Origin: Miniphocaeibacter halophilus
GTDB taxonomy: Bacteria > Bacillota > Clostridia > Tissierellales > Peptoniphilaceae
Length of the DNA stretch: 64,000 bases
NCBI RefSeq assembly: GCF_016458825.1
Contig: NZ_CP066744.1
Coordinates: 1,671,868-1,735,867, forward strand
Direction: 5' to 3'
Shown: positions 54,558 through 63,965 of the stretch, piece by piece
Layout: each line of letters begins with the position of its first letter
Numbering within the stretch: position 1 is the first letter of the stretch
Program-made: the position numbers and the translations under genes
Notes under the pieces: generated by a model
The model's input: only the letters and a program-made list of their open reading frames with translations
What the model was told of the DNA's origin: nothing
Database searches by the model: none

Positions 54558-54686
54558 ACTATTTAAAAGTAAGTTAAATAAAAGATAAAATAATTAGTTA
54601 AATATTTAGAAGTAAATTGTTTAATTCAATTTGTTTTGGTATAATTATAGTGTATTAGTTTATTAATGTACAAAAGGGAGGATAAA

Positions 54687-55181
54687 ATGGATAAAGAAAG
54701 ATTATTTAAAAGAGCAAAAGGATGGAATACATTTATAATTGTTATTAAAATTATAACAGTAATATTTACTGTATTGGGTTTAGTTAGTTTATATGCGATT
54801 AATAATTCAAAGGAAGTAAGAGACCAATTAATTGCAGTGGGAACGGATATGTCAGTTTTTGAAACAAGTACCTTTGATAATATAATTTCAATTATAATTT
54901 TAATAATTACTATTGGAATAATTGTTATGGCAATTATGAATTCTAAAAAAATGAAGAATCAAGAACTTTTTAATATTACGCCATATATATTAATAATATT
55001 ACTAGTAATTTATTCTGTAGCAACAACAATTATTAGTGCGGTTAGTTTAAATGTTCCAGGAGCAATGATGTCAATTATAATAAATATGATAATAAGTATT
55101 CTAATAAATGTTCTACCATCAGTAATAATAATATCAAGTTATAATAAAATAAATAATATAATGGGAGAAGAACAAAGATAA
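54687..55181 (+). CDS. Four-helix membrane protein heading exporter operon (YknW-like position)
   Basis: A 164-residue integral membrane protein. ATG 54687 is preferred because AAAGGGAGG precedes it. Four hydrophobic helices lie at about 16-40, 66-88, 98-120 and 126-150. No sequence motif is recognised. In Bacillus the yknWXYZ operon begins with a four-helix membrane protein that helps assemble the exporter, and this gene has the same position and topology. Sequence similarity to YknW is not evident by eye, so the functional link is inferred from operon order. Confidence 0.65.
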   Translation: MDKERLFKRAKGWNTFIIVIKIITVIFTVLGLVSLYAINNSKEVRDQLIAVGTDMSVFETSTFDNIISIIILIITIGIIVMAIMNSKKMKNQELFNITPYILIILLVIYSVATTIISAVSLNVPGAMMSIIINMIISILINVLPSVIIISSYNKINNIMGEEQR

Positions 55182-55183
55182 TT

Positions 55184-56491
55184 ATGACTAAGAGAAGTAA
55201 GATAATAGTAGCTATAGTTTCAATAATTCTTATTGTTGCTATAGCACTAACAATATTTTTTAGTAGAGATACTAAAGAAACAGTAGAACTATACGAAGTA
55301 ATAGAGCAAGATCCTATTTCCTTTTCTGGAAATGTAGAGGCTAGTGAAAAGCAGGAGGTATATTTAGATTCTACTAAAGGAAAAATAAAGGAATATTATG
55401 TTAATGATGGAGATTCTGTAGAAGTAGGACAGAACTTATTTATCTATGAAAATGATACAGTTAAAAGTCAATTAGTTCAATTAGATACACAGTATAATTT
55501 AGCTGTAGATGCAAAAAACTCTGCAAATTCACAATTAAGTAAAGCTAAAAGCAGTTTATCGGCAGCTAATAAAAAAGTAACTGACCTAAATAATAAAATT
55601 AAAAATATTTCTTCAAATATTACTCTGCCAACAGATATTGAGGATTATAACAATCCAAATAATACGGGGAAAAGTTCAGGGGAACTTACTCAGTTGCAGA
55701 TGGAATTAGAGTCGGCAAAAATGGAAGTTCAAAGTTTGGAGTCTACAATTCCAAGTTTTGAGTCTGCTGTAAGTCAAGCAAATGCAGAAATTAAAGGAAT
55801 AGATTCCCAAAGAAAAACTGCTAAAGAAAACTTAAACTATGTAGAAAAAGCTAAAATATCCGGAAAAATAAAACTTGATAAAGAGGCTGCAGAATCAGCT
55901 ATGAGTATGACAGGTGCAAGTCCGGTTGTAACTATAAACAGTAACGAGATTGTTATAAAAGGACAGGTTTCAGAATACGATTACGACAAATTAAAAGTTG
56001 ATAATAGGGTAAAAATAATAGTTGCAAATTCTGGAGAGGAAATTGAAGGGACTATAAAAAGCATTGAAGAAATGCCAATTAGTAAGGATTCTCAAATTTC
56101 TATGAACCAACAAACAACATCAATTGCAAATTATAGTTTTACAGTTACACCAGATGAAAATATTCATTATGGATTTTCAGTAAATATAAAGCTACCTCAA
56201 GATAAAATTTATTTACCATTTGAAGCAGTATTAAAAGAAAAAGAAAAGTATTTTATTTTTAAAGTTAAAGATGGAAAAGCAATTAAAGAAGAAATAGAAG
56301 TAGAAATAGAAGATGGTATATATAAATTAATATCCGGTTTAAAGCTTGGCGATAAAATAATTTCCAATATAGAAGGTATAACTGAAAATATGGAAGTAAA
56401 AGTAGACGATGATAGTAAAAATAATAATACAGAGGCTACAAAAGAAGTAGAAGATAGTAATAGTTCAACAAATCCGGAGACACAACAATGA
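55184..56491 (+). CDS. MacA/YknX-type efflux adaptor
   Basis: A 435-residue membrane-fusion (HlyD/RND adaptor) protein. One N-terminal helix (about 6-28) anchors it. A split lipoyl domain follows (GKIKEYYVNDGDSVEVGQNLFIYEND), then a long coiled-coil hairpin (about 85-215) rich in Ala/Ser/Lys, then a beta-barrel region (KGQVSEYDYDKLKVDNRVKIIV) and a membrane-proximal domain ending in an acidic Asn/Ser tail. It links the ABC permease to the cell wall side. It begins two bases after the membrane-protein gene and overlaps the ATPase by four. Confidence 0.92.
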   Translation: MTKRSKIIVAIVSIILIVAIALTIFFSRDTKETVELYEVIEQDPISFSGNVEASEKQEVYLDSTKGKIKEYYVNDGDSVEVGQNLFIYENDTVKSQLVQLDTQYNLAVDAKNSANSQLSKAKSSLSAANKKVTDLNNKIKNISSNITLPTDIEDYNNPNNTGKSSGELTQLQMELESAKMEVQSLESTIPSFESAVSQANAEIKGIDSQRKTAKENLNYVEKAKISGKIKLDKEAAESAMSMTGASPVVTINSNEIVIKGQVSEYDYDKLKVDNRVKIIVANSGEEIEGTIKSIEEMPISKDSQISMNQQTTSIANYSFTVTPDENIHYGFSVNIKLPQDKIYLPFEAVLKEKEKYFIFKVKDGKAIKEEIEVEIEDGIYKLISGLKLGDKIISNIEGITENMEVKVDDDSKNNNTEATKEVEDSNSSTNPETQQ

Positions 56492-57165
56492 TAGAGGTAA
56501 GGAAGGTTAACAAAACATATATTACCGGAGAGGAAAAACTACATGTGTTAAAAGATGTATCCTTTGAAGTACATGAAGGTGAATTTGTTGGAATTATGGG
56601 TGAATCAGGCTCGGGAAAATCAACCTTAATGAATATAATAGGATTTATGGACAATAAATATGAAGGAGAATATCTTTTTGATGGAAAATTAACAAAAAAT
56701 GAAAATGATGATAAACTTTCCCATATAAGAAATAGAGCTGTCGGGTTTGTATTTCAAAATTTTAATTTAATAGATAATTATACAGTTAGGGAGAATGTTG
56801 AATTACCATTATTATATGCAGGATTAACTCCTAGAAAAACAAAAAAAATTGTTTTAGAAGCATTGGAATCTGTAGGAATACCTGAAAAAATAGATAAATA
56901 TCCTACACAACTTTCAGGCGGTCAGAAACAAAGGGTAGCAATTGCTAGGGCAATAGTCCATAATCCTAAATTTATCCTTGCAGACGAACCAACAGGCGCT
57001 TTGGATTCAGCAACATCAAGAGAGATTATGGAAATATTTAAAAAACTAAATATAGAAAATAAAACAACTGTAGTTATGGTAACTCACGATAGAAGTTTAG
57101 CTTCCTACTGTTCAAAAGTTCTTTTTATGGTTGATGGAAATTTAGAAGAAAGGTTTGATTTGTAA
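56488..57165 (+). CDS. MacB/YknY-type ABC transporter ATP-binding protein
   Basis: A 225-residue ATPase of the LolD/MacB class. Walker A GESGSGKST is at 38-46, the Q-loop in VGFVFQNFNLI, signature LSGGQKQRVAIARAIV, Walker B FILADEPTGALDS and switch His in VMVTHDRSLA. These ATPases drive mechanotransmission rather than substrate passage through the membrane. One base is shared with the permease gene. Confidence 0.95.
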   Translation: MIEVRKVNKTYITGEEKLHVLKDVSFEVHEGEFVGIMGESGSGKSTLMNIIGFMDNKYEGEYLFDGKLTKNENDDKLSHIRNRAVGFVFQNFNLIDNYTVRENVELPLLYAGLTPRKTKKIVLEALESVGIPEKIDKYPTQLSGGQKQRVAIARAIVHNPKFILADEPTGALDSATSREIMEIFKKLNIENKTTVVMVTHDRSLASYCSKVLFMVDGNLEERFDL

Positions 57166-58367
57166 TGAAATTTTCGGTATTATTTTCAGATGCATTTAAT
57201 GCTATAAAAAGAAATAAAAAACGAAGTATACTGACTATGTTAGGAATAGTAATTGGAATTGGTGCAGTAATAGCAATAATTTCTATTGGCCAAGGTTTTG
57301 AAAATTATGTAGTAGAGGAACTTACAGAAGATGAGTCTCAAGATATTACTAGTAATATTACTTTTCAACCTAATGATATGTCCCTGGCATATGATTCAAA
57401 TATAAAGTTTTTTTCAGAACAGGATTTAATAGAAGTAGGAAAAATTAAAGGTGTCAAAAATGTAGAAATAACCGGTGTAAACACCGATTCAAATAATGCT
57501 TCAATGATTTTGGAAACAGATAAAACTACAGAAAATTCTACAGCTGAACTAGTAAAAAACACAGATAAAAAATTAGTCGAGGGAAGAAATTTAACATCCG
57601 TAGACAATAAAACCAAAAATAGGGTAGTTGTTATTAGTGACTATATTGCAAAAAAGCTTTTTGAAGATAAAAATTCCTATCTAGGTAAAAATATAAAGAT
57701 TAATGGTCTAAATTACCAAATAGTAGGTGTTTATAAAGGTGCTACCGGTATGATGGCAATGATGAATTATTCTCTATTAATTCCAAAAGATACATATGAA
57801 TTTTATAATGAGGCAAAATTTGCAAGTGCTTCAATAACCTTGTATTTGGAAAAAGGTGCTCAGGTTTCAGATGTATCGGAAAAAGTTGTAGATTTTTTAG
57901 CCGACAATGGAAGCATGAAAAATTTAGGCAAATATACCTTTGTGGATATTGGAGAAATAATGGATGGTATATCCAATATTCTAGATAGCATTACTACTTT
58001 TATAGCCTTAATAGGAGGTATTTCACTTCTAATAGCAGGAATAGGAATAATGAATATGATGTTTATATCAGTTTCTGAAAGAACAAAGGAAATTGGAATA
58101 AGAAGAGCTTTAGGAGCAACAAAGAAGAATATTACAATACAATTTTTATTAGAAGGAATAATAATAACTGTAATTGGCGGAATATTAGGGTATTTCTTTG
58201 GTATACTATTTGCTATGATAATAGCTATATTTTTACCTTTTACAATTTCAATAGAGACAGGCCCTGTACTTGTTTCCCTATTTATTTCTCTAGCAATAGG
58301 CATTATATTTAGCTATAGTCCGGCAAAAGCTGCAGCAAATAAAAATGTAATTGAAATACTAGCCTAG
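57165..58367 (+). CDS. MacB/YknZ-type FtsX-family permease
   Basis: A 400-residue ABC permease with four transmembrane helices: one near 21-43 (RSILTMLGIVIGIGAVIAIISIGQ), then a large extracytoplasmic MacB periplasmic core domain (about 45-275), then three helices in the FtsX domain (IALIGGISLLIAGIGIMNMMFISVSERTKEIGIRRALGAT and onward to SYSPAKAAANKNVIEIL). It forms the YknXYZ-like complex with the preceding genes. Known systems of this kind export or resist peptides and toxins; the substrate here is unknown. Confidence 0.94.
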   Translation: MKFSVLFSDAFNAIKRNKKRSILTMLGIVIGIGAVIAIISIGQGFENYVVEELTEDESQDITSNITFQPNDMSLAYDSNIKFFSEQDLIEVGKIKGVKNVEITGVNTDSNNASMILETDKTTENSTAELVKNTDKKLVEGRNLTSVDNKTKNRVVVISDYIAKKLFEDKNSYLGKNIKINGLNYQIVGVYKGATGMMAMMNYSLLIPKDTYEFYNEAKFASASITLYLEKGAQVSDVSEKVVDFLADNGSMKNLGKYTFVDIGEIMDGISNILDSITTFIALIGGISLLIAGIGIMNMMFISVSERTKEIGIRRALGATKKNITIQFLLEGIIITVIGGILGYFFGILFAMIIAIFLPFTISIETGPVLVSLFISLAIGIIFSYSPAKAAANKNVIEILA

Positions 58368-58436: not shown

Positions 58437-58494
58437 AAATTATTGTAAAACGATAATTTAACTGATATAATTATTGTAAAACAATAATTATATC
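58437..58494 (+). promoter_or_regulatory. Promoter bracketed by two large palindromic operators
   Basis: TTGTAA (58443-58448) and TATAAT (58466-58471) with a 17-base spacer form the promoter. Operator 1 at 58437-58459 has 10-bp arms AAATTATTGT and ACGATAATTT around AAA with one mismatch. Operator 2 at 58464-58494 has perfect 14-bp arms GATATAATTATTGT and ACAATAATTATATC around AAA. The shared core is ATTGTAAAACnAT, centre-to-centre 31 bp, so both sites lie on the same DNA face and cover the -35 and -10. The YozG-like regulator encoded two genes downstream is the obvious candidate ligand. Confidence 0.8.
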
Positions 58495-58508
58495 AAGGGG
58501 GGGATATT

Positions 58509-59504
58509 ATGAATATGAAGAAGAAATTAACCATGTTCTTAATAATAGAAGTTTTAATACTTTTAATTTTTAATATTTTTGAAGCAAATATTTTTAATAT
58601 GGAACAAATAGTATTTTTTCCATATTACCAAATAAGTAATATTTTAAGAAGTATGTCTATAAGTGGAAGTATTGGAAATATAATATCTTGGGCTATATAT
58701 ATTTTAATATCTATAATTCCAATAATAATTTTTGTTAAGATAAAAAGGAGAAATAATTTTAAAAATATAGATTATTTATTATTATTTATTTCATTATTGA
58801 TATTTTTAACTATATATGTAGGAATAAACCCAAATATAATTGAGATAATTTTAAAACAAAATATTAGTTTACAAATTTCATTTCCTATTATTACAAATCA
58901 ATTAATTTTATTGTATATTATATGGAGATTTTTAAAGATAGATATAAATAGATCAAACTCTATAAAATATATTATAGGGATTTTGTTTTTAACAAACGTT
59001 ATTGCAGTAATTAATATTTTTGGTGTTGGCTTAAAAGATAATTTAAATAATATGGAAACATTAAGTTATTATGGCAATACAATATCTATATTTGATTATT
59101 TGAATAGATTAAAAGAAAAATATATGTTTGCAATAGATAATTATGAATTGATTAGAATTATTCTAGATTTTATAAATAATAATATTTTTAATATAATGTA
59201 TATTTTTTTAAATATGAATTTAATATATATTCTTATAGATATGGAAAACAAATTTAGTGAAAATACTGCAATTAATAAATTATATTCACTAAAAAATAAA
59301 ATTAAACTTGGCTTGTTATTATCGATTTTTATAAATATAATTATAAATTTGGTCTATATAATTTTTGAAAAGCATTTTTACAACATTACTATAAAAATAA
59401 ATTTTAACTTAGAATTATTGGTTTATTTTTTATTTATTAGTTTAATTGTACAGTATTTAATAAAAGTTAAAGAAATAAAAGATGAAAATAAAATGTTTAT
59501 TTAA
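58509..59504 (+). CDS. Eight-helix membrane protein of unknown function
   Basis: A 331-residue, very hydrophobic, Ile/Asn-rich protein preceded by a GGGGGGG ribosome binding site (ATG 58515 is an alternative start two codons in). About eight helices are visible, starting LTMFLIIEVLILLIFNIFEA and ending LELLVYFLFISLIVQYLI. No motif or family is recognised; DUF2975-type membrane proteins that pair with YozG regulators are usually shorter. It lies downstream of the palindromic promoter and is followed eight bases later by a small HTH gene and then a lipoprotein gene. Confidence 0.75.
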   Translation: MNMKKKLTMFLIIEVLILLIFNIFEANIFNMEQIVFFPYYQISNILRSMSISGSIGNIISWAIYILISIIPIIIFVKIKRRNNFKNIDYLLLFISLLIFLTIYVGINPNIIEIILKQNISLQISFPIITNQLILLYIIWRFLKIDINRSNSIKYIIGILFLTNVIAVINIFGVGLKDNLNNMETLSYYGNTISIFDYLNRLKEKYMFAIDNYELIRIILDFINNNIFNIMYIFLNMNLIYILIDMENKFSENTAINKLYSLKNKIKLGLLLSIFINIIINLVYIIFEKHFYNITIKINFNLELLVYFLFISLIVQYLIKVKEIKDENKMFI

Positions 59505-59512
59505 GGTGAATT

Positions 59513-59728
59513 ATGGCAATAAAAGTATATTTAGATGAAATATTAAAAGATAGGAATATGACTTCAAAAGAATTAGCAAAATTAATTAATATTACTGAAG
59601 CTAATTTATCTATTTTACGTTCAGGTAAGGCAAAAGGAATAAGATTTAATACTATAAATAAAATTTGCTATTATTTAAATTGCGATATTGGTGATATATT
59701 AAAATTCGATGGAGAATTGGAGGACTAA
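59513..59728 (+). CDS. YozG-like XRE helix-turn-helix regulator
   Basis: A 71-residue single-domain regulator of the COG3655/YozG type. The HTH runs YLDEILKDRNMTSKELAKLINITEANLSILRSGKAKGIRFNTINKICYYLNCDIGDIL, cited as positions 6-63, with the typical LSxLRxGKAKxIRFxTLxxIC pattern. Such proteins are often encoded with a membrane protein and control their own operon. The two palindromes around the upstream promoter are likely targets, an inference from position. AAGGTGA precedes the start. Confidence 0.9.
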   Translation: MAIKVYLDEILKDRNMTSKELAKLINITEANLSILRSGKAKGIRFNTINKICYYLNCDIGDILKFDGELED

Positions 59729-59729
59729 T

Positions 59730-60635
59730 ATGAAAAAGTTCAATGTAGTTTTATTAATTTTGCTAATGGTTCTTTCTCTTAGTGGATGTAAGTTGGCAAA
59801 AGAAGAAACAGTTAAAAATCCAGCATATGATACATTAGTTGGAGGATTTGTTCAATTTATTGAGTATGGAAAAGAAAAGGAAATTAAAAATATTGAGGAT
59901 GTAAAAATAGAAGTTAAAGGTAAAGATACAAATAAATACATAGAGGTAGATGGAGCCGAAGGTTATGCCTTTTTAGCAATAGCTACAATAGATTTAGAAA
60001 ATAGCTATAGTACATCAGAAACAATAGCTAGTCCATGTATAGAAGCAAGTGCAGATTACAAATATGAAGAGGGTCAATCAAGATTTCAAATTAATTTAAA
60101 AGGTAAAATTTATATAGATGCAGAAACTAAAGGAAGTTTAAAACTATATCCTATATACTTAACAGATGATAATAAATACTATATCGGTAAAAATAAGTAT
60201 GTTTTTGGATTGGACTTAGATGGAAATTATTTTCAAAATTTTGAGGAAGGAAATTATGAGAAAATTTCAATATCAGAAAATTTTAATAATAAACTAAATA
60301 AAAAGGAGCAATCTAATACTGTAGAATTAGAAGTAAAAAAAATATTAAGAAAAAAAGAAATAAAAATAATAGAAATGGACAAAAATAATAATATGTTAAA
60401 TATTGAAAAATTTAATTATTCGAATTTACCATATAGGATAGAAATTAATTCAAATACAGAGTATATCCTTTTAGAAGAAACGACAGATAAGAACTTAATT
60501 GAAAGAAAGATTATAAATTATGTTGATGATGAATTAGAACAGTTTAGATTTGGAGATAATACTGTTACATTTCCAATATTCAATAATGGGAATATAGCAG
60601 AAATCAAAAATATAAAAATTGAAAAGGACATATAA
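59730..60635 (+). CDS. Lipoprotein of unknown function
   Basis: A 301-residue secreted lipoprotein. The start at ATG 59730 gives a clean lipobox, LSGC with lipidated C19, and has TTGGAGG before it; the longer frame would spoil the signal peptide. The mature part is acidic and rich in Lys/Glu/Asn with beta-strand character (VEVDGAEGYAFLAIATIDLENS). No domain is recognised. It ends the three-gene unit and begins one base after the regulator. Together the genes suggest a membrane complex with an exposed lipoprotein. Confidence 0.82.
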   Translation: MKKFNVVLLILLMVLSLSGCKLAKEETVKNPAYDTLVGGFVQFIEYGKEKEIKNIEDVKIEVKGKDTNKYIEVDGAEGYAFLAIATIDLENSYSTSETIASPCIEASADYKYEEGQSRFQINLKGKIYIDAETKGSLKLYPIYLTDDNKYYIGKNKYVFGLDLDGNYFQNFEEGNYEKISISENFNNKLNKKEQSNTVELEVKKILRKKEIKIIEMDKNNNMLNIEKFNYSNLPYRIEINSNTEYILLEETTDKNLIERKIINYVDDELEQFRFGDNTVTFPIFNNGNIAEIKNIKIEKDI

Positions 60636-61272: not shown

Positions 61273-63051
61273 TTATTCAAGTTCATTTATTAATACATTT
61301 TTTAAAAAGCTTCCAACTATATCAGAAAATCTGTTTATGTTGGAAATATAGGCAAAATCATTTCCATATATCTTTTTTTCACTTGGAAGATCTTCTTCTT
61401 CGCCGGTAAATACACCTAAGACTATGTTGTCAGAATTTCTACTTAAAAAAACTTCCTTTGATGAATCTTTAATAGCATCTTCTTTTATATAATCCTTAGC
61501 TTTTTTATTAATATTTCCGATGATTTTCAAATTGATTTTGTCGTTTGGCTTACCATCGCTTAATACTATTAGAATTCTTCTTTCAAAACCTGTATTGTTC
61601 ATAAGATAGCTAACGGTTTTAATAGCTAATCCATCTCTATTTGAACCTGATGCAGTATATTCAAAAATATTTTGGTTTTTATTATCTGAATCAAAGTAAT
61701 CTCTAAATATTTTTAAGATTAAAACATTATAAAAATTATTAAAGGACATTACCCTTGTCGGAATGTTTAAATCCGTTAGGGATTGAGCAATTATAAAACC
61801 TTGGGATGCTATTAATGCTTGTCTTTCAATTTGAGAAGCGGAGCTGTCCAATAAAATATCTACTGAAACTGTTCCAATTTCATCCTTTTTTTCTTTTAAA
61901 AATATTTTATTATTATTTATATATTTTGGTTTCCAAAGTAAGGAAGGAATTAACTTACCATTAGTAGATAGGTACTTACTTTCGTTTAAATCCGTTAAAA
62001 TCTCCCTTCTTATTACTTCTCTTAATTTAGTAATGGATCTTTTATATATTAAATAGTTTTTATTAAAATGCTCTAAATTTTCTTTTTTTATTTCCTGCTT
62101 TTCAGATTCTCTAAATTGTTCGTTTAAGCTTTTGCCAAATTTTCCCCTAGTAAGTAAAATTTGTATTCCTTCATGTATTCCTGTACATAGCTTATTTTCT
62201 AGTTTGCTTGTATTTGAACTACTTAAGATACTTTTACCATATACTTTTTCAGCTAAATCCTTTAAATAACCTTCTTTAGTATAGTTTTCTGTAGTAAGAT
62301 TATTTTCTTCCAGGTCTCTATCTATTTCCCTATCTTCAAAGAGAAAGCTGGATTTATTAAATTCAGCAGCTTCAACTTGATCTTTGTCTAATACATTTTG
62401 ATTACGATTTTTAAATTCTATTTTGACCTTCAAATCTTTAGGCAATTTATCTTTTTCTTTGGAGCTTTCTAGAGATTTTTTTAAATTTTGCTCATAGTTA
62501 ATATTTAGGTGTATATGAAAATGCCTTTTAATAATTTTATCTATTTTTAATATAAGGTCTGAAGTGTTTTTTATATTTTTAATATTCATAATATCATTTA
62601 ATAATAAGATAACCATCTCTCTAGTTTTAGGAACATAGGATAATTTTCTACTATAATAGGCATATTCTAACTCTTCTGCTAAATTATTAGGTGTTCTAAA
62701 TTTGTAATTATTGTATTTTTCTTTAGTTGTATAATCTCTAAATTCTACTATACCCGGTCTATATTTGTCATAGTAAAACCAAAAGTATTCCTCCAGCATT
62801 AATTCGGTTATTTTATAATAATCGTCAGGGTAGGGATTGTCCTCAGTTAGTACATAGAGGAAATTATAAACCTCCTCTATTTGAAATTTACCATAGCTAA
62901 AGCCGGCTAAAGCAGACTTGTAAATATTGATTTTATTATTATCTTCAAATTTAAATATATTATAGTTTGGTATAAAATTATAATTATTTGCAACGGTCCA
63001 AGTAATATTGTTCATTCTGTTAGTACTTAAATCCATTAATTTATTTTCCAT
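61273..63051 (-). CDS. VWA-domain protein paired with MoxR ATPase (CobT/NorD-like)
   Basis: A 592-residue soluble protein. The C-terminal third is a von Willebrand A domain with an intact metal-ion site: DSSAS near residue 400 (DxSxS), the Thr in TASGSNRDGLA and the Asp in VLSDGKPNDKIN. The N-terminal 380 residues are helical and charged, with no family motif that I can name. In known MoxR-VWA pairs (CobS-CobT, NorQ-NorD, RavA-ViaA) the ATPase and VWA protein together remodel or load metal into a target enzyme. The target is not visible here. It shares one base with the upstream ATPase gene (TAATG). Confidence 0.88.
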   Translation of the reverse strand: MENKLMDLSTNRMNNITWTVANNYNFIPNYNIFKFEDNNKINIYKSALAGFSYGKFQIEEVYNFLYVLTEDNPYPDDYYKITELMLEEYFWFYYDKYRPGIVEFRDYTTKEKYNNYKFRTPNNLAEELEYAYYSRKLSYVPKTREMVILLLNDIMNIKNIKNTSDLILKIDKIIKRHFHIHLNINYEQNLKKSLESSKEKDKLPKDLKVKIEFKNRNQNVLDKDQVEAAEFNKSSFLFEDREIDRDLEENNLTTENYTKEGYLKDLAEKVYGKSILSSSNTSKLENKLCTGIHEGIQILLTRGKFGKSLNEQFRESEKQEIKKENLEHFNKNYLIYKRSITKLREVIRREILTDLNESKYLSTNGKLIPSLLWKPKYINNNKIFLKEKKDEIGTVSVDILLDSSASQIERQALIASQGFIIAQSLTDLNIPTRVMSFNNFYNVLILKIFRDYFDSDNKNQNIFEYTASGSNRDGLAIKTVSYLMNNTGFERRILIVLSDGKPNDKINLKIIGNINKKAKDYIKEDAIKDSSKEVFLSRNSDNIVLGVFTGEEEDLPSEKKIYGNDFAYISNINRFSDIVGSFLKNVLINELE

Positions 63052-63965
63052 TATAATACCTTAAAAATATCTTCTCTTGTTAAGTCGTTTTTAAAAAGAC
63101 TGTTAATTACATCCTGGATTATTTCTCTTTCAAAAAGGTCGAAGGTTTTATTTACTAGACCTATTTGTAAAGCTGATTTTATATTTAATCCTATTTTCAT
63201 TGCTCCAATAGCTGCTATTAAACCTCTAATATCAATAGCTTTTGAAGAAATTTCAGAGTTCATACTCTTTTCTTGAAGGTCTAAAAACAATCTTATAAAT
63301 AAATCCAAAGCATTTTCTCTTAGGTAGAAATCTGTAAGTAAAATATGTTTCAATGTTTCTTCACTTGCTTTAGGCATATCTATTACAAGAAATCGAGAAA
63401 TAAGAGCTTCATTTAATTCTTTAGTGCCTGCATAGCCATAATTCATTGTACCAATAAATCTAGTAGCATCGTTTAAATTTATTTTTTCATATCCGGGAAC
63501 ATCTATTATTCTCCTATAGTCAAGTAGGGAATGAATAACTGCAACGGAATCACTTTTAGCCATATTTACTTCATCTAATATACCAAAACCACCATTTAAA
63601 GCTACATCATAAACAGGTCCCGGTCTAAAGGTTACTTCATTGTCCTTAAAAGTATCTGTTCCAATTAAATTTGTACTGTCGGTGTTTACATGAAAGGATA
63701 TATTCCAAGTAGGTCTTTGAAATAGGGCAGCTAAGTTATCGCTAAGAACATTTTTTCCTGTTGCCTTAGGACCGCTGAGTAGGATATTTGAACCTTGTAG
63801 TATAGCGGTAATACTTTGCTCCCAAACTTCTTTTCCGTAATATTTATAATGTGGTGACGGAATACGATTTATATATTTATTGTCTAATTGATGGTTTTTT
63901 CTAAATTCTAAAACTTTATCTATTAACTTATTATCTATATTTTGTTCTTTTAAAAAATCTATCAT
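63051..63965 (-). CDS. MoxR/CobS-type AAA+ ATPase
   Basis: A 304-residue AAA+ ATPase of the MoxR clade. Walker A is GPKATGKN (residues 65-72), Walker B GGFGILDEVNMAKSD, sensor 1 in RFIGTMNYGYAGTKELNEALISRF, with the MoxR-specific FRPGPVYDVALNG insertion. It likely forms a hexamer that works with the VWA protein downstream. A TATAAT on the minus strand at 63992-63987 is a probable -10, and AAAAGGAG precedes the ATG. The region upstream is outside the window, so its 5' neighbour is unknown. Confidence 0.92.
   Translation of the reverse strand: MIDFLKEQNIDNKLIDKVLEFRKNHQLDNKYINRIPSPHYKYYGKEVWEQSITAILQGSNILLSGPKATGKNVLSDNLAALFQRPTWNISFHVNTDSTNLIGTDTFKDNEVTFRPGPVYDVALNGGFGILDEVNMAKSDSVAVIHSLLDYRRIIDVPGYEKINLNDATRFIGTMNYGYAGTKELNEALISRFLVIDMPKASEETLKHILLTDFYLRENALDLFIRLFLDLQEKSMNSEISSKAIDIRGLIAAIGAMKIGLNIKSALQIGLVNKTFDLFEREIIQDVINSLFKNDLTREDIFKVL

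Follow-up and report, generated by a model that had tools for sequence, protein, structure and literature searches.

A three-gene operon of Miniphocaeibacter halophilus with a predicted operator pair, a YozG-type regulator, a lipoprotein and a membrane protein likely related to DUF2975

Genes and features of the locus

The analysed stretch of Miniphocaeibacter halophilus DNA (64 kb, hereafter the window) contains three closely spaced genes behind a predicted promoter, which is overlapped by two palindromic boxes. The features are as follows.

58438-58458, + strand: predicted operator box 1, AATTATTGTAAAACGATAATT; holds the -35 hexamer; kept in relatives
58443-58471, + strand: predicted promoter, TTGTAA (58443-58448), 17 bp, extended -10 TGATATAAT
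58469-58489, + strand: predicted operator box 2, AATTATTGTAAAACAATAATT; lies within a perfect-arm palindrome (58463-58495); kept in relatives
58509-59504, + strand: membrane protein of 331 aa, eight predicted transmembrane (TM) helices, C-terminal part DUF2975-like, tail KDENKMFI
59513-59728, + strand: Cro/C1-type helix-turn-helix (HTH) protein of 71 aa (HTH_26, YozG-like), predicted repressor; recognition helix ITEANLSIL with E29
59730-60635, + strand: lipoprotein of 301 aa, lipobox LSGC, all-beta model

The HTH gene starts 8 bases after the stop of the membrane-protein gene, and the lipoprotein gene starts 1 base after the HTH gene. The HTH protein matches HTH_26 (PF13443) with 83.7 bits (curated cut-off 22); against the VanU equivalog of NCBIfam (NF000090) it scores 31.1 bits, below the cut-off of 150. 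Neither the membrane protein nor the lipoprotein matches a Pfam or NCBIfam family above its cut-off, and neither is found in PADLOC. The preliminary description of this DNA had proposed a membrane-plus-lipoprotein module belonging to no named family, and such a module, conserved in relatives, is what is found.

An operon for a 4-TM protein, an HlyD-like adaptor, an ABC ATPase and a MacB/FtsX permease lies directly upstream (54666-58367). Its gene order is presumably that of Bacillus YknWXYZ; the match to YknW reaches E 0.38 only. The permease gene is also found upstream of the cassette in the same-genus genome G001. On the minus strand (61273-63965), an AAA_5-type ATPase is paired with a protein weakly matching the CobT VWA domain.

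Promoter and predicted operator

The promoter matches the consensus at 10 of 12 positions and has an extended -10 (TGA-TATAAT). This match alone is weak, since the promoter scan gave 35 promoter-type sites over 2.5 kb and shuffled sequence still gave 26.6. Box 1 encloses the -35, and the -10 runs into box 2, which directly precedes the ribosome site. A transcription start 7 nt past the -10 would coincide with the centre of box 2.

Two palindromes 31 bp apart around the promoter had been described previously. Their position and distance stand; the arms around box 2, given then as 14 bp, are perfect over 15 bp (58463-58477 and 58481-58495). In box 1 a single mismatch between 8-bp arms is seen by inspection. 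Palindromes with perfect arms of at least 14 bp occur five times in the 64-kb window and are not rare in this AT-rich DNA, and at least four box matches at up to three mismatches were obtained in 5 of 100 shuffles. The significance of the palindromes therefore comes from their conservation, as long perfect arms alone are not rare here.

No site other than these two boxes matches AATTATYGNNNNNCRATAATT without mismatch in the 2.39-Mb genome. At up to two mismatches there are 27 sites, compared with 24 for the reversed pattern; the genome-wide scan lists a one-mismatch site at G000:C1:2169974. Because its two boxes are the only mismatch-free matches in the genome, the HTH protein probably acts chiefly or solely at this promoter.

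The palindromes could also act as RNA hairpins, that is, as a leader attenuator or processing sites instead of operators. The 15-bp arms and the position of box 2 just before the ribosome site are compatible with this, yet box 1 holds the -35 and is therefore upstream of any transcript from this promoter. The boxes moreover share one sequence, not only complementarity, and their outer base follows the class of the HTH protein (see below). We consider the hairpin explanation highly improbable.

Spread and conservation

The membrane protein is present in 5 of 61 near genomes, in 3 of 150 genomes of the order (one match weak) and in 22 of 391 genomes of the class (two weak), with the window's own genome counted each time. 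The weak matches (L013, L037 and L038) have E values from 3e-4 to 9e-4. Among 24 loci read in detail, the box pair occurs at 23. The HTH gene is readable at 22, the two misses being contig ends, and a third gene follows it at all 22 readable loci; at L010 this gene runs off the end of the locus. The alignments A4 (21 rows), A5 (19) and A6 (21) were drawn from these 24 loci: L008 and L036 (contig ends) and L022 (a near copy of L021) were left out, and L010 and L027 are absent from A5.

With the HTH protein as sole query, a scan across 84,980 species genomes matched at least 595 stretches, at least 552 of which were confirmed. The best 80 were analysed; being ranked by HTH similarity, they do not represent HTH_26 genes at large. 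The 8-TM gene was found upstream at 80 of these 80 loci (E <=1e-3), a count to be read with the choice of the loci by their HTH in mind (best 80 of at least 552). The lipoprotein gene was found downstream at 79 of the same best 80 (E <=1e-2), and the sole locus lacking it, L049, sits at a contig end. The three genes thus occur as a set in numerous anaerobes, one of them the cultured Lachnospiraceae species Schaedlerella arabinosiphila (L076). Alignment A7 comprises 56 of the 60 8-TM rows that were usable, and alignment A8 holds 60 of the 75 lipoprotein rows, the window being added to each. One side observation is a tandem pair of lipoprotein-type reading frames behind one HTH gene at L086 (2208-4094).

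Five of the best 80 loci have no upstream DNA. Among the other 75, the box pair is present at 67, one box at seven and none at one. Elsewhere in the same loci, 439,058 bases outside the searched stretch contained no box pair. A TTGACA -35 lies within box 1 in 60 of the 67 pair-bearing relatives. The boxes are spaced by 31-45 bp, most commonly 42; since spacings of 31-36 and of 41-45 both occur, we do not propose strictly helical phasing. The preliminary description had suggested looking for the same gene order and palindromes in related genomes. Order and boxes are kept, and scattering of the genes was not seen, with the reservation that the 24-locus and 80-locus sets are not fully independent because species overlap between them. 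The HTH protein had also been named as the autoregulator, which the operator pair kept before the same genes (67/75 loci) makes probable.

In 29 of the 67 pairs (L039-L118) the half-sites are arranged as a mirror, with the T-type half outside and the C-type (CG) half inside in both boxes. The two boxes there thus form a larger inverted repeat; the pair of the window is not mirrored.

The three proteins are conserved to different degrees. Over 56 loci the median pairwise identity is 0.78 among the HTH proteins, 0.29 among the membrane proteins and 0.28 among the lipoproteins. With respect to the proteins of the window, the partners fall to 16-28% identity and the HTH protein ranges over 71-82%. 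Membrane-protein and lipoprotein distances are correlated with r 0.84, a value that none of 999 permutations reached (56 of the 80 loci), so that the two proteins are inherited together; HTH distances correlate less with those of the two partners (0.38 and 0.34).

Membrane protein and lipoprotein

The membrane protein of the window has no Pfam match to DUF2975 (PF11188) over the curated cut-off, and only 1 of 21 members touches this family (best E 0.0027). Profile comparison with hhalign aligned the C-terminal half to DUF2975 (YoaS) at 94.1% (E 1.3e-7); this alignment covers profile positions 213-330, and a separate comparison placed the DUF2975-like part at residues from about 148 to 329. In the controls, the N-terminal half reached 0.7%, the reversed profile 0.4% and the best of 50 block shuffles 73%. 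Given this last value, homology is likely, not certain: the C-terminal half is likely a distant DUF2975-like domain. Internal duplication of the 8-TM protein was rejected (N-half against C-half, 0.7%).

The structure model of the membrane protein is helical throughout (mean pLDDT 86.3). Seven segments are predicted from hydropathy, to which the model adds one more helix (120-143). With this helix the positive loops fall on one side, so both termini are probably cytoplasmic, as judged partly from loop charges. Searches for solved relatives by sequence gave nothing convincing (best E 0.25), and no clear fold match emerged: Foldseek against the PDB returned none at E <=0.001, and VIA-align of the helical model, applied after this, gave Z up to 8.8.

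The C-terminal consensus of the 8-TM proteins, LK[DE][DE]ND[LM]F[IV], is conserved to the last residue. DUF2975 proteins end in a similar consensus, KEENDLT[IV]. These proteins have four helices and a length of about 150-220 aa, a range that the window protein, with 331 aa and eight predicted TM helices, exceeds. The statement that the 8-TM protein is unrecognised and unlike the partners of YozG is hence correct in that no family matches over its cut-off, and fails in that the C-terminal half is DUF2975-like and the tail matches.

The model of the lipoprotein is all-beta (mean pLDDT 86.2). It has no clear fold match: no structure at E <=0.001 was found by Foldseek in the PDB or among viral structures, and VIA-align thereafter gave Z up to 4.8; the best solved relative by sequence (E 0.038) is unconvincing. 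In some relatives the third protein has, by inspection, a signal anchor without the lipobox cysteine.

Sister operons and the class split of the regulator

Operons of DUF2975 (PF11188, YoaS) and a YozG-type HTH protein share with the operon described here a membrane-protein gene placed directly before an HTH_26 gene. At 28 of 30 DUF2975 loci the next gene downstream of DUF2975 is that of the YozG-type protein, and in the window the usual DUF2975 companion likewise stands directly downstream of the membrane-protein gene. The likeness extends to the alignable C-terminal half, to the tail and to a sister operator core upstream. The 8-TM version differs in an N-terminal extension that does not resemble DUF2975, a third gene for a secreted protein or lipoprotein (79 of the best 80 of at least 552 loci), two boxes 31-45 bp apart, a glutamate in the recognition helix together with A at operator base 2, and a score below the Pfam cut-off.

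The sister core, TTATYGN5CRATAA, differs from the 8-TM operator at one outer base. It was found at 45 sites in 53,207 bases upstream of HTH genes and at one in 150,322 bases elsewhere. A mismatch-free sister box is present at 40 of 60 DUF2975 loci and absent at 20. Because this core recurs in DUF2975-YozG operons, which share with the 8-TM operons only the HTH type and a distant membrane domain, the predicted operator is assigned to the HTH protein as its reader. At eight DUF2975-type loci (L131, L135, L139, L141, L156, L181, L182 and L185) two boxes stand exactly 21 bp apart, with a core mismatch in one or both boxes at all but L182.

E-type HTH proteins are defined by glutamate at the second position of the recognition helix (ITEANLS; E29 in the window). 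Its presumed counterpart in the 434 repressor is Gln28, a residue in contact with the outermost operator base. All 14 half-sites of E-type HTH proteins, contributed by four DUF2975-type loci on plasmids (Anaerococcus, Providencia, Cedecea and Serratia), carry A at operator base 2; among 76 half-sites of non-E proteins this base is T in 65, A in nine and another base in two. A mismatch-free box is lacking at three other E-type loci on plasmids, two from Klebsiella and one from Edwardsiella. The counts are restricted to boxes free of core mismatches, two per locus at most, and 60 of 64 loci yielded the HTH motif. For 59 of these 60 loci the penultimate membrane-protein residue was counted as well: it is T in all but one of the 52 partners of non-E proteins (51/52) and I, V or F in 7 of 7 partners of E-type proteins; in the 8-TM proteins it is F, I or Y (57/57). 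The operator base, the recognition-helix residue and the tail residue split together into two classes.

In the HTH tree, which has only 75 columns and covers 22 of the 80 8-TM loci, the window and 60 DUF2975-type loci, the 8-TM HTH proteins form one clade (100/97) within a group of all E-type rows (98/89). Since all three positions split on one branch of this tree, the class-coupled triple change may be a single event and could reflect common descent without contact.

Related systems and earlier descriptions

Among solved structures, only 3tyr/3tys matched the HTH profile at E <=0.001 (E 5.5e-5). We take 3tyr to be VanU_G. A gene table elsewhere pairs the name YozG with 3TYR (PMC9239279). In the vanG operon of Enterococcus, footprint and gel shift placed VanU_G on two palindromes at the -35; it represses its own operon according to the Discussion, and it is displaced by the activator VanR_G, with no sequestration reported by the authors (PMC4405338, available sections). 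The likeness to the regulation predicted here consists in a small Xre/HTH repressor of its own operon acting at two adjacent palindromes at the -35. The difference is that VanU_G acts with VanR-VanS, and no DUF2975 partner appears in the available sections of PMC4405338.

The pairing of Xre and YoaS-like membrane proteins was recorded in the toxin-antitoxin survey of Makarova and others in 2009, which counted 32 occurrences and excluded them; in their reply the authors said that pairs of the membrane-protein kind might be novel systems (PMC2701414). The gene pairing is the same as here, whereas the operator, the tail motif and the 8-TM/lipoprotein version are absent from the available text of that survey. 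Other sources mention YozG-type regulators accompanying restriction-modification genes (PMC12376442), a microarray row among YozG/DUF2975 mentions (PMC4326333) and a Streptomyces cluster with DUF2975 and HTH genes listed as adjacent (PMC7827011).

Several operons illustrate the variety of gene content. In the window's genome, outside the window, L015 (553-2313) is a second, DUF2975-type operon for a secreted protein of 150 aa, a DUF2975 protein, a YozG-type HTH protein and a lipoprotein of 197 aa. The upstream stretch scanned at L015 showed no recognisable operator box, which places this operon among the 20 of 60 DUF2975 loci lacking a mismatch-free one. On the Anaerococcus prevotii plasmid pAPRE01 (L154, 1972-3213), a lipoprotein-like gene, a DUF2975 gene and an E-type HTH gene form one operon preceded by two boxes at a distance of 30 bp, which is possibly an intermediate form. 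A Serratia plasmid (L158, 983-3213) carries a membrane-protein gene and an E-type HTH gene directly before a MacB efflux pump pair. On a Klebsiella plasmid (L160, 1-2807), the membrane-protein and HTH genes stand between genes for a serine hydrolase and an ATP-grasp amidoligase; a similar gene set with a DUF2975 gene lies on a mapped genomic island (PMC12708576).

Mobile elements, defence and the toxin-antitoxin possibility

A defence or immunity unit had been suggested for the locus, and the toxin-antitoxin-like form of this idea would make the membrane protein a toxin or immunity protein silenced by the HTH protein. The excluded Xre and YoaS-like pairs and the authors' reply quoted above (PMC2701414, available text), the patchy spread (22 of 391 class genomes) and the occurrence of DUF2975-HTH pairs on plasmids speak for it. 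However, PADLOC gave no match for the membrane protein or lipoprotein, either from the window or from L018; the HTH protein matched HTH proteins only (best E 7.4e-6). Neither the 8-TM nor the lipoprotein gene was found in the plasmids searched, nor the 8-TM gene in the phages searched, where the query was one distant member (L058) and members at 16-28% identity can be missed. HTH relatives occur in 10 phage records at <60% identity, and a scan of viral contigs with the HTH protein found one relative at 47%. To our knowledge, a lipoprotein is not a usual part of toxin-antitoxin systems.

A conserved neighbourhood was not found: no family among the 12 largest clusters of 305 flanking ORFs occurs at more than 5 of the best 80 loci. 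The two largest clusters reach 5 of 80 loci each, one coming from related genomes (68% identity) and the other being loose (25%); by eye, the loose one resembles a MATE transporter. The same-genus genome G002 was checked for an empty site and gives no clean comparison, because the MacB operon and the kinase gene are separated in that genome. In view of the PADLOC, plasmid and phage searches and of the flanking genes, the defence and mobile-element readings of the 8-TM operon were rejected, and a toxin-antitoxin-like or immunity unit appears unlikely.

Proposed regulation of the operon

The reading we favour, with a probability of roughly 0.55, is an autorepressed envelope module in which the cytoplasmic tail of the membrane protein governs the repressor. 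Its first element, predicted autorepression of the operon by the HTH protein, is well supported, though indirectly, by the conserved boxes and by the analogy with VanU_G. Dimers of the HTH protein would bind both boxes, cover the -35 and the start region and so shut the operon; 8 of 75 loci without a recognisable second box count against this. Tail control and the signal input would come in as follows. The membrane protein, with its distant DUF2975 C-terminal half, would have both ends in the cytoplasm, and its conserved last residues would dock on the HTH protein and either take it off the operator or hold it there. A signal sensed by the membrane protein or by the lipoprotein outside could then lead to more of both being made. 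The lipoprotein, co-inherited with the membrane protein, would be an outward-facing sensor or effector. A role in envelope stress or signalling is possible.

Alternatively, the operon could be autorepressed by an HTH protein that never touches the membrane protein: the repressor would keep levels low, and the membrane protein and lipoprotein would form a transporter or envelope enzyme. Autorepression alone accounts for the boxes, and divergent partners (16-28%) beside a constant HTH protein (71-82%) are expected if only the HTH protein and its operator are locked together. All coupled positions also change on one branch. VanU_G is described without sequestration by a partner in the available sections of PMC4405338; as it is displaced by VanR_G, a small HTH protein need not be membrane-controlled. 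YozG-type HTH proteins are likewise found beside restriction-modification genes (PMC12376442). Conservation of the membrane-protein C-terminus to the last residue and the split of its penultimate residue by HTH class nevertheless argue for contact, and the HTH gene directly after the DUF2975 gene at 28 of 30 loci is hard to explain without a functional link. Regulation lacking such contact is thus a less probable, though serious, contender.

Significance for the DUF2975 family

DUF2975 proteins were found in 40 of 99 genomes sampled from the class and in 46 of 199 from the phylum. In the literature searched, whose coverage leaves out most subscription papers, no functional study of the YoaS/DUF2975-YozG pair was found; for this reason the three-gene 8-TM version with its operator is called undescribed as far as these searches reach, the YoaS-Xre pairing itself being known since 2009 (PMC2701414, available text).

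More tentatively than control of this operon by the tail, DUF2975-YozG operons and the 8-TM version could together represent a single, widespread and undescribed way of signalling across the membrane. A 70-residue repressor would have the free C-terminal peptide of a membrane protein as its ligand, and matched positions in the tail (penultimate residue), the recognition helix and the outer operator base would keep parallel systems apart in one cell. What the analysis adds for the DUF2975 family is a concrete predicted operator, a candidate site at which membrane protein and repressor could meet, and a new branch of three genes, one of them for a surface lipoprotein.
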